Shown here: piece after piece, positions 2,285-24,128 of the stretch
Layout: each line of letters begins with the position of its first letter
How positions within the stretch are numbered: the stretch's first letter is position 1
Source of the DNA: a virus
DNA: 24,128 nt
Virus record (IMG/VR): IMGVR_UViG_3300033148_000777
Location: 1-24,128 of that record
Direction: 5' to 3' (one strand)
Notes under the pieces: generated by a model
What the model saw: only the letters and a program-made list of their open reading frames with translations
What the model was told of the DNA's origin: nothing
Database searches by the model: none
Translations under genes and position numbers: made by a program

Positions 2285-2314
2285 AGCTTGTATTATATAA
2301 TATAATATGATATA
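2285..2314 (+). repeat. Promoter repeat, copy 1
   Basis: A 30-bp block that recurs at 20187-20216 with a single mismatch (position 2310 A versus 20212 G), including 25 identical bases in a row. Both copies supply the -35, spacer and most of the -10 of a promoter, so the duplication is functional rather than random AT-rich similarity. Confidence 0.85.
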
Positions 2315-20186: not shown

Positions 20187-20216
20187 AGCTTGTATTATAT
20201 AATATAATATGGTATA
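20187..20216 (+). repeat. Promoter repeat, copy 2
   Basis: Second copy of the 30-bp promoter block found at 2285-2314, with one mismatch. It drives parA as the first copy drives the PAPS-reductase-like gene. Beyond it the two leaders diverge, though both have TGTGAAA shortly after the -10 (2318-2324 and 20223-20229). Confidence 0.85.
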
Positions 20217-20251: not shown

Positions 20252-20926
20252 ATGGGAACAAACACACTAAAAATAGTAGTTGCTAATCAAAAAGGCGGTA
20301 CAGGTAAAAGCACAGTAGCTATTAATTTGGCTATAGCACTTCACGCATCTTATGGTGGCTATGTATCACTTATAGATACAGATACGCAAAGCCTCACTAC
20401 CTCTAAATTTAATGATATTAGAAATACAGTAGAATTTGATGAAGCATATAAGCCATTACTTAGTATTTATAATAAACCTAATTCTAATGAGATAGAAAAC
20501 ATTATAAATAAATCACAAATGATTGTAGTAGATACAGGCGGTTTTAATACTATAACTACAAAGGCTTTTATAGCTACTGCTGATGTAGTATTAATACCTA
20601 TTAATCTATCAGGTGTAGAAATGGATACACTAGTAGATTTTGCATCTACTATACAAAAGATTTTAAAAGCTACAGGCTCAGCGCCTAAATTAATGATAGT
20701 ACCTACGCGCATACACCACTTAACTAATCACCACGCTTTAGAGGATTATTACAAACCACTACGAGAATTAGGCTACATAGTTACACCAGCACTAAGACAG
20801 CGTAAGATTTACCAAGATGCACACGCTTTAGGTAAGGGTGTAATAGAGTTAGATGATGTGAACGCTAGAACAGAGGTATATAATATGACACGATTTGTAA
20901 CAGAAAAAGGGGTTTTTAATGGCTAA
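20252..20926 (+). CDS. parA: ParA-family partition ATPase
   Basis: A 224-residue ATPase of the small plasmid ParA type, which moves DNA copies apart by binding the nucleoid with ATP. Deviant Walker A is KGGTGKST (residues 14-21, with the signature Lys14), Walker A' is LIDTDTQ (40-46) and Walker B is IVVDTGG (about 89-95). RQRKIYQDAHALGKGVIE near the C-terminus is typical of ParA/MinD-like partition proteins. There is no N-terminal DNA-binding domain, so the operon is probably regulated by its partner (type Ib-like). It overlaps the next gene by eight bases and has AAGGGG upstream. Confidence 0.95.
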   Translation: MGTNTLKIVVANQKGGTGKSTVAINLAIALHASYGGYVSLIDTDTQSLTTSKFNDIRNTVEFDEAYKPLLSIYNKPNSNEIENIINKSQMIVVDTGGFNTITTKAFIATADVVLIPINLSGVEMDTLVDFASTIQKILKATGSAPKLMIVPTRIHHLTNHHALEDYYKPLRELGYIVTPALRQRKIYQDAHALGKGVIELDDVNARTEVYNMTRFVTEKGVFNG

Positions 20927-21140
20927 GAATAATTTTGCAGAAGCTTTAAATAAGCTAAAAAAAGATGATAAGGGCGCTACGCTTCAAGAAACTACACAGC
21001 CTAGATATAAAACCACTAAACAGATTAGTGTGTACTTAGATGAAGATGCTATAGAGTTTATGAAAGCTAAAAAGCTAAATAGAACAGAGATTGTAAACAC
21101 ATCTGTAATAGAACATTTAAAGGCTAATTATGAGTATTAA
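20919..21140 (+). CDS. Ribbon-helix-helix DNA-binding protein, likely ParB/ParG-like partner
   Basis: A 73-residue protein. Residues 1-30 are flexible and charged, and residues 31-73 read as a ribbon-helix-helix fold: strand KQISVYLDEDA, helix EFMKAKKLNR, helix EIVNTSVIEHLKANYEY. In type Ib partition systems such small proteins bind centromere repeats and the operon operator, and their flexible N-terminus stimulates ParA. The overlap with parA and the palindrome upstream of the operon support this. No centromere repeat array is obvious nearby. Confidence 0.8.
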   Translation: MAKNNFAEALNKLKKDDKGATLQETTQPRYKTTKQISVYLDEDAIEFMKAKKLNRTEIVNTSVIEHLKANYEY

Positions 21141-21237: not shown

Positions 21238-21260
21238 GGTTAAATTAAACTATTTAAGCG

Positions 21261-21266
21261 TATAAT
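21261..21266 (+). promoter_or_regulatory. Possible -10 box of the small-gene region
   Basis: TATAAT at 21261-21266 lies in the 113-base gap after the small ORF, with only a poor -35 (GGTTAA at 21238-21243, 17-bp spacer) and no TG extension. It would transcribe a structured leader and then the genes from 21351. Confidence 0.4.
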
Positions 21267-21301
21267 GCTGGCTGTGTTAAAGTTTCCAGCTAAAATACAA
21301 C

Positions 21302-21328
21302 GCCTAGCAAGCTACAGACGCGCTAGGC
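21302..21328 (+). promoter_or_regulatory. Leader hairpin before the small-gene region
   Basis: GCCTAGC at 21302-21308 pairs perfectly with GCTAGGC at 21322-21328 around a 13-base loop. A weaker stem precedes it: GCTGG at 21267-21271 with CCAGC at 21286-21290. No T run follows, so it is not an intrinsic terminator. It may shape the leader of the gene at 21351 or be part of a small RNA. Confidence 0.45.
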
Positions 21329-21350
21329 TGAAATAAAAGGAACTTAAAAC

Positions 21351-22012: not shown

Positions 22013-22327
22013 ATGTTAAGCTTTAATAGATACGACCTCTTAGAAGTTGCAGACGATAAACACCATGTAGATGTGCTTATGATGAGCGCATACAAGTATG
22101 CTAAAAAGCTAAAATCTAAGATGTTAACGATACATACACCTACTAAAAGGCGTGGTGAGTATGAAACTAGAATTATACGCCATTTTGACTTAGATACTTT
22201 AATAGTATACTACCAAAAGAAGATAAAAACAGAGGGTATTTACAGGCTAAGAAGAACTAAACACCTAAACACCTTTTTGAAGCTAAAAGAGCATCTACTA
22301 GCAAAGGCTGAGACATGCGAAAATTAA
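22013..22327 (+). CDS. Basic hypothetical protein
   Basis: A 104-residue lysine- and arginine-rich protein (LLEVADDKHHVDVLMMSAYK, TPTKRRGEYETRIIRHFDLD, YRLRRTKHLNTFLKLKEHLL). I choose the ATG at 22013, two bases after the previous stop, over an in-frame ATG at 21929 that would overlap the previous gene by 83 bases. Charge and size would suit nucleic-acid binding, and it is one of few candidates for an unrecognised replication or control protein, but there is no motif to prove it. Confidence 0.6.
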   Translation: MLSFNRYDLLEVADDKHHVDVLMMSAYKYAKKLKSKMLTIHTPTKRRGEYETRIIRHFDLDTLIVYYQKKIKTEGIYRLRRTKHLNTFLKLKEHLLAKAETCEN

Positions 22328-22840: not shown

Positions 22841-23003
22841 GGATAATATAGATTTTATTATAGAAACATTAGAAAATGCTATTAGTTGGGCTGATTATGC
22901 AGATGCTTATTTTAAAGATAGACATGATTTTGATAAAGACCAAGAAAATGTTAATAAAGCAATAGCAATATTAAAAGAGCAAAAAGAGTTACTAGATGCC
23001 TAA
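22833..23003 (+). CDS. Small acidic hypothetical protein
   Basis: A 56-residue protein (MSRDNIDFIIETLENAISWA, then a D/Y-rich stretch and NKAIAILKEQKELLDA). It overlaps the genes on both sides by eight bases (ATG within the previous end, and its own stop inside the next start), which supports real translation. Helical hairpin likely; function unknown. Confidence 0.55.
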   Translation: MSRDNIDFIIETLENAISWADYADAYFKDRHDFDKDQENVNKAIAILKEQKELLDA

Positions 23004-23241
23004 GTTAATAGATTGTATATACTGTAAGGGTAAGGGTTTTAACTATACTAATTTGATGCACAAATCTAAGTGTAAAGAGTGTGAGGGTACAGGACAAACA
23101 GAGGTTAATGAGAAACGCAAAAGTATCTTAGTACCGCCAGCAGTACACCGCCAGCTAAAGAGACAAGCACACGAACACCAGCGCAGTTTAGTAGACTTTA
23201 TTACTTTTTTATCTAATAAATCTGATGAGTTAGAATTGTAA
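22996..23241 (+). CDS. Zinc-ribbon plus ribbon-helix-helix regulator candidate
   Basis: An 81-residue protein joining two modules. Residues 7-33 carry two DnaJ-type CxxCxGxG repeats (C7-x2-C10-KGKG and C26-x2-C29-EGTG), enough to bind one zinc. Residues 38-81 look like a ribbon-helix-helix domain: strand EKRKSILVPPAVHRQLKRQA, then HEHQRSLVDFITFLSNKSDE. I infer a small metal-containing DNA-binding regulator. It is the last gene before the long gene-free region and could control a promoter there. No J domain is present, so it is not a DnaJ. Confidence 0.68.
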   Translation: MPKLIDCIYCKGKGFNYTNLMHKSKCKECEGTGQTEVNEKRKSILVPPAVHRQLKRQAHEHQRSLVDFITFLSNKSDELEL

Positions 23242-23248
23242 CACTAAG

Positions 23249-23254
23249 TATAAT
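23249..23254 (+). promoter_or_regulatory. Possible promoter of the structured RNA region
   Basis: TATAAT at 23249-23254, just after the last small gene, without TG extension or a clear -35. Transcription would start near 23261 and run through the gene-free region to the HNH gene. Confidence 0.4.
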
Positions 23255-23281
23255 TTAGATAGATAATATTTTATATTTAAG

Positions 23282-23320
23282 CAAGGGTTAATCATTTAAT
23301 AGATAAATTTTTAACCCTTG
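23282..23320. repeat. 10-bp perfect inverted repeat
   Basis: CAAGGGTTAA at 23282-23291 and TTAACCCTTG at 23311-23320 with a 19-base loop. It could be the 5' hairpin of the following RNA, a terminator of the small-gene run (a short TTTT follows only after five bases), or a protein-binding palindrome. Confidence 0.65.
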
Positions 23321-23330
23321 ATAAGTTTTA

Positions 23331-23735
23331 TAGTGTGCTTTAGCGTGAAGCACATTACTAAGATTTTTGGAGCAGTCTTTAAGTAGCGGTTGGGAACATG
23401 CCTAGACAGATGGCATCGGTTAAGGAAAATCTGTAGCCTGTATGGAGTTAATAGCCCATACTTGAAATTAAAAAGCACCTAACAGGGCTAATCCAGCATA
23501 CTATTTTCTGTATGCACTCTTATCTAATAGTACGTGGTTAAAGGCTCAGGCTTACGCGATATAGTACCGAAGCGGAACGGTGGGCTGAACTATTAGCTGT
23601 AGTGATATACATGCGCTTATTAGTATGTATGGTGAACACTACAGGCAGATAGATGGGCGCTGATGTATTGCGTTTGAGTATCTATATGTACTTAGAGAGG
23701 GTTGATATAGCCCTCAGTATGCAAACTCAAAACAC
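23331..23735 (+). ncRNA. Candidate large structured non-coding RNA
   Basis: A 528-base stretch (23242-23769) has no credible gene on either strand. Within it perfect complementary segments are dense: 23331-23340 with 23348-23357 (one G-U), 23361-23367 with 23426-23432, 23398-23402 with 23412-23416, 23434-23438 with 23486-23490, 23440-23445 with 23456-23461, 23496-23501 with 23510-23515, 23524-23531 with 23589-23596, 23597-23604 with 23637-23644, 23607-23612 with 23625-23630, 23673-23679 with 23725-23731, and 23697-23701 with 23711-23715. They nest cleanly, and two long helices abut at 23596/23597 as if stacked. GC is raised (25, 26 and 28 of 60 in 23341-23400, 23401-23460 and 23521-23580, against 17 of 60 at 22861-22920). 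I cannot assign a known class; ROOL/GOLLD-like or a new phage RNA are options. Confidence 0.6.
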
Positions 23736-23769
23736 CTCACTTTACATTTGAATTAAAAGGATTAACACC

Positions 23770-24128
23770 ATGCCTAAGAAGATATGCAACTACTCAGGGT
23801 GTAACGAACTCATAACATTTAATAGAACTTACTGCTTAACACATGGCACTACTCAAACTAACTACAGTAAATATAATAGAGATAAAGACAGCGCTAAGTT
23901 TTATAACTCTACAGCATGGCGTAAGAAGCGTAGAGAAGTCTTAGCTATTCATGGTGGATTATGTCAAGACTGTTTAGCTGATGATAAGATAGTAGAAGCT
24001 GATGTAGTAGACCACATCACAGAGTTAAAAGATGATGCCTCACTAGCATTAAATAACGATAATCTAAAGCCACTTTGTCACGCATGCCATAACAAGAAAA
24101 CATTAAGTAATAAATCAAGTATAGGGTA
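23770..24128 (+). CDS. HNH endonuclease (cut by window edge)
   Basis: The first 119 codons of an HNH nuclease. The N-terminus has a small Cys cluster (C6, C11, C22). Then NSTAWRKKRREVLAIHGGLCQDC opens the HNH domain, with VVDHITELKDD (His82), NNDNLKPLCHACHNKKT (Asn98 region, C103-x2-C106, His107) completing the metal and catalytic residues. HNH proteins next to terminase genes nick or cut DNA and aid packaging in HK97-type phages. AAGG at 23757-23760 is the ribosome site. Continuing into base 1 of the window adds Tyr-Thr and a TAA at 5-7, giving 121 residues if the molecule is circular. Confidence 0.92.
   Translation, partial: MPKKICNYSGCNELITFNRTYCLTHGTTQTNYSKYNRDKDSAKFYNSTAWRKKRREVLAIHGGLCQDCLADDKIVEADVVDHITELKDDASLALNNDNLKPLCHACHNKKTLSNKSSIG

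Follow-up and report, generated by a model that had tools for sequence, protein, structure and literature searches.

The window, a stretch of 24,128 nucleotides, contains a ParA-like ATPase gene along with packaging, tail and lysis genes that are recognised by Pfam, PHROGs and NCBIfam. No integrase, replication initiator, helicase or polymerase was recognised by the same collections in the early region, and the genome carries no tRNA genes. A ParA match was found in 16 of 50,697 phage records, several of which are plasmid prophages; the matching records include phiHAP-1, with RepA and a protelomerase in the neighbourhood, and D6. Two copies of a 30-bp repeat, one of them preceding parA (Table 1), are candidates for a shared operator or centromere. 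Among the early genes, the product of 22013-22324 yielded a predicted structure of modest confidence (pLDDT 73) that matched no known fold. The gene at 22996-23241 encodes a small protein with CxxCxG zinc-finger-like motifs resembling those of DnaJ and anti-TRAP and possibly an RHH C-terminus, which might act as a regulator. Directly downstream of it, and ending at the gene of an HNH endonuclease whose ATG is shortly preceded by its own ribosome site (AGGA), lies the largest gap of the window. With 528 bp, it is 4.7 times the size of the next gap (113 bp) and accounts for about half of the total intergenic DNA. The second largest gap (21238-21350) holds a GC-rich hairpin with two TATAAT hexamers close by.

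Table 1. Coordinates of the features of the window that are discussed in the text.
Feature	Position	Strand	Basis
30-bp repeat, second copy, before PAPS-reductase-like gene at 2315	2285..2314	+	97% identical to 20187-20216
30-bp repeat before parA, candidate operator or centromere	20187..20216	+	97% identical to 2285-2314
ParA partition ATPase	20252..20926	+	phrog_164 ParA-like, E 5.5e-32; NF041546, E 1.7e-29, under its cut-off
Small protein overlapping ParA, probable ribbon-helix-helix partner	20919..21140	+	suggested by weak antitoxin-type matches and position after parA
Very AT-rich stretch (GC ~22%) at the 5' edge, candidate unwinding element	23180..23300	.	putative unwinding role
Gene-free interval, candidate structured RNA or origin region	23242..23769	+	no coding signal, largest gap, fold z on + strand only
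TATAAT, possible -10 element of the RNA	23249..23254	+	exact match; weak, without good -35
Hairpin 1, perfect 10-bp outer stem and 5-bp inner stem	23282..23320	+	pair probability 0.96-1.00
Hairpin 2, ~20 bp with one bulge, then short T run	23323..23366	+	pair probability 0.93-0.97
5' domain, closing stem and hairpins 23398-23416, 23418-23438, 23440-23461	23368..23495	+	predicted fold
3' domain, long branched rod; near-equal alternative of separate hairpins	23496..23722	+	z -3.95
HNH endonuclease (phage type, terminase neighbour), runs off window end	23770..24128	+	PF01844, E 9.7e-10; phrog_144, E 3.9e-39

A sequence-only reading of this DNA had described the interval 23242-23769 as free of genes, which is confirmed by our analysis. 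Its sole open reading frame of at least 50 amino acids is a 55-residue frame on the minus strand that starts with GTG. Each of the six frames is interrupted by 11-17 stops, and their codon log-odds range from -0.30 to +0.07 compared to 0.28-0.88 for genes of the phage. We rejected the possibility of a decayed gene, as the analysis of codon usage and stops in the six frames revealed no trace of one. The GC content amounts to 36.9% for the interval and to 42% for its core (23366-23720), in a genome of 34.7%. The preceding gene, which had been quoted at about 28% GC, in fact measures 36.2%, and a value of 26.6% belongs to the gene one further upstream. GC skew is positive everywhere and uninformative. 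The TATAAT reported at 23249 is present as an exact match, but the case for a -10 element is weak since it is not accompanied by a good -35 and since the hexamer is no more frequent in the window than expected (50 occurrences vs 71). At the 3' end of the region, no clear intrinsic terminator was found. An origin based on iterons was rejected because the interval contains no family of direct repeats.

The interval is exceptional in its predicted stability as RNA. The plus-strand RNA folds with an energy of -152.6 kcal/mol, corresponding to a z-score of -4.5 to -5.0 with none of 150 shuffled sequences reaching as low a value, whereas the reverse complement shows a z-score of -1.35. The same asymmetry is found in the core (23366-23730), with -3.6 on the plus vs -0.05 on the minus strand. 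Among the 44 non-overlapping plus-strand segments of 528 nt in the window, the interval ranks first for both z-score and energy; the other 43 have a mean z of -1.16 (sd 1.35), although two coding segments reach -4.3. The interval is thus supported as a non-coding element that is structured on the plus strand only. Of the earlier proposal of a large non-coding RNA, it is this non-coding and strand-specifically structured character that stands (z -4.5 vs -1.35), whereas the argument from the abundance of helices does not, since their numbers are at the level of chance, with 10 perfect helices of at least 7 bp compared to 6.7 ± 2.7 and 3 of at least 8 bp compared to 2.0 ± 1.4.

The fold signal is unevenly distributed and carried by the two 5' hairpins (z of about -5.0 for 23242-23320 and about -4.8 for 23321-23368) and by the 3' domain, for which none of 150 shuffles was as low. 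The branched 5' domain is weak, with a z-score of only -1.6 for 23366-23496 and pair probabilities of 0.93-0.99 in the outer stems of its hairpins and 0.4-0.7 in its closing stem. Of two 8-bp helices that had been proposed to abut end to end, 23597-23604/23637-23644 is retained with a probability of 0.93. Its partner 23524-23531/23589-23596 is present in the sequence but has a probability of about zero in the ensemble and is absent from the best fold. As a fold forced to hold both helices is only 6.4 kcal/mol costlier, either of two folds may describe the exact structure.

The nearest relatives of the phage, judged by the sequence of the large terminase TerL, are L074 (93% amino acid identity), L078 (81%, from a Campylobacterota MAG) and L075 (75%), all of which end near the terminase so that none reaches the region. 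In the window, the large terminase is split into the reading frames 634-1269 and 1254-2282 by an apparent one-base frameshift at 1220-1270. The relatives read through in one frame, and the frameshift could be either real or an assembly error. In L075 (positions 1-2244), TerL seems, from reading its translation by eye, to hold an intein-like insert ahead of the conserved ATPase portion. Among the TerL contigs L170-L249, 57 end upstream of the gene, and by our count 27 of them stop 1,020-1,260 bp upstream of its second half. The left end of the window lies 1,253 bp upstream of the same point. That about half of the contigs with such an end stop in one interval of 240 bp suggests cos ends, by which complete genomes would become recognisable among records classed as linear. 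In two long relatives, HNH is located at the opposite contig end. From the shared ends upstream of TerL and the location of HNH at the other end, we infer that the ends of the contig are cos ends, with TerS on the left and HNH on the right, and that the window probably represents a genome of about 24.1 kb from cos to cos, complete or nearly so. As the cos ends would be situated beyond HNH, on its far side, we regard a cos or pac element within 23242-23769 as unlikely.

The position of the region in front of HNH can be compared with that in the prophages L276, L277 and L278, whose bacterial genomes belong to the family of L078. In these, the slot is filled without gaps by a DnaB-type helicase, a protein of 251-270 amino acids and a gene of 83-96 amino acids, and in L276 the protein following DnaB is a clear O-like initiator (phrog_9773, E 1.1e-22). 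It is this slot, used for replication genes, that the structured gene-free region occupies in the window. Nearly all of the other relatives that were examined have a small gap ahead of HNH. A gap of 697 bp in the Moraxella prophage L085 is no counterpart, as it consists mostly of small reading frames and terminators, and no HNH match was found in G001, the genome of L078.

The two kinds of search that had been suggested with the sequence-only reading, for RNA families and for homologues, both came back empty. No family of Rfam 15 matches the region at gathering threshold, and a scan at E <= 10 gave nothing relevant. Single-family searches of the record at E <= 10 also failed to detect ROOL (RF03087) and GOLLD (RF02032), neither of which had been matched before; for ROOL, control genomes in the same search gave no match either. 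At the nucleotide level, blastn against phages and plasmids returned only AT-rich chance matches around 23245-23306, and a scan of viral contigs with three exact patterns only chance matches. No homologue was found in 397 genomes of L078's phylum by blastn or by two single-sequence covariance models, built on the 5' and 3' domains, which also had no match in 15 loci. The same holds for 175 genomes of L078's family and for about 250 loci examined. Sequence searches of this kind reach close relatives only, and the covariance models were run with no known positive.

Taken together, a probably complete genome, a partition pair unaccompanied by recognised replication genes and a slot that holds such genes in relatives point to an origin. 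The leading explanation, which we put forward tentatively as possible rather than probable, is that the 528-bp region is the RNA-based replication origin of a plasmid prophage. It is the best single explanation because it accounts for a fold signal like that of mycobacteriophage origins, a partition gene and the lack of a recognised replication gene. On this view, which goes by inference beyond the observed fold and gene content, the region would be transcribed into a functional RNA that starts replication. In such a mechanism, a host-type promoter near 23249 would drive a plus-strand transcript of about 450-500 nt that would fold into the two 5' hairpins, the branched 5' domain and the long 3' domain. 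The folded RNA would prime or open the DNA for host replication enzymes, and the ParA/RHH pair would segregate the copies. Several points weigh against this assignment. The small uncharacterised early genes could hide an unrecognised initiator, coding segments of the genome come close in z-score, the position and orientation relative to parA differ from those in mycobacteriophages, no homologue was found in the searches described above, completeness is deduced from contig ends in a virus record that states none, and a lytic cycle would also need host replication functions. A fuller scenario is more doubtful. In it, the phage, with a genome of about 24 kb and probably infecting Campylobacterota, would have lost the DnaB/O-like module of its relatives and be maintained as a plasmid prophage by a new RNA of about 450-500 nt that belongs to no described class.

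Other explanations appear less likely. The region might encode a stand-alone large structured phage RNA that acts in trans in the manner of ROOL and GOLLD and has no role in replication. The strand-specific stability of the whole region and of the 3' domain, a size of about 450-500 nt and a prophage setting as found for ROOL and GOLLD (PMC12286853) would all agree with this proposal, which we nevertheless consider improbable in view of the failure of either model to match even at a permissive threshold, the lack of a tRNA gene in the genome, ROOL and GOLLD being often located close to tRNA islands, and the empty homologue searches.

About as improbable is that the region forms an extended structured 5' leader for HNH or the late operon and would control transcription or translation, for example by antitermination as in put of HK022. 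A leader is conceivable because the region has no clear 3' terminator and the HNH gene behind it possesses a ribosome site of its own, and it would fit the two strong hairpins at the start of the region and the zinc-finger-like gene just upstream, with its weak Arc-like and Q-like matches. However, TerS is equipped with its own TATAAT at 35-40, and almost all of the examined relatives have HNH behind other genes with no leader of this kind. Elements of the put type measure about 70 nt and are thus far shorter than the region, whose size and slot speak for more than a leader.

Equally improbable is that the interval is ordinary intergenic DNA, composed of an early-operon terminator, an HNH promoter and spacer or degraded sequence, with a stability that is partly due to chance. 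Such DNA could account for the chance-level helix counts, for a fold signal that resides to a large part in the two 5' hairpins and for comparable z-scores in coding segments, but not readily for a gap of this size, for a 3' domain that is distinctly stable on its own or for the missing trace of a decayed gene.

If the RNA-based origin were correct, it would be a second, unrelated RNA-only case in an AT-rich phage and suggest a wider exchange between protein and RNA modules for replication. It would also provide a minimal replicon for hosts that are difficult to work with and a concrete, testable function for large phage RNAs, most of which lack an assigned role.

In comparison with known systems, the region resembles ROOL and GOLLD in being large, structured and phage-borne and differs from them in matching neither model and in belonging to a genome without tRNA genes. 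Origins of the ColE1 type use RNA II, a structured RNA. With these origins the region would share a long RNA and the absence of an initiator protein (PMC7157519), unlike them it matches no Rfam family, and no antisense RNA was identified here. The closest parallel is found in mycobacteriophages, where prophages without RepA replicate from gene-free stretches some 600 bp long, which yield a non-coding RNA and function without a protein product, the only group in which RNA-only prophage replication has been shown according to the same study (PMC7157519). Like RedRock, Gladiator, Alma, LadyBird and Et2Brutus, the phage possesses a partition system and a stretch of about 0.6 kb that is free of genes and, barring unrecognised small initiators, has no repA. 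Its fold signal is also of the same sign and size on the RNA strand, as illustrated by the three mycobacteriophage RNAs that we have folded (z -2.85 for RedRock, -3.37 for Gladiator and -5.04 for Alma), whose neighbouring segments range from 0.75 to -1.63 around a background of about -0.5. In contrast, the mycobacteriophage RNA abuts parA and is transcribed away from it, whereas here the parA operon ends at 21140 and the region, beginning at 23242, follows 2.1 kb downstream on the same strand. Moreover, the mycobacteriophage origins have been tested for function and their phages encode a DNA polymerase I, whereas the present candidate belongs to an unrelated, AT-rich phage. By analogy, and with no claim to membership in this group, the region may work like the RNA origins of mycobacteriophages.
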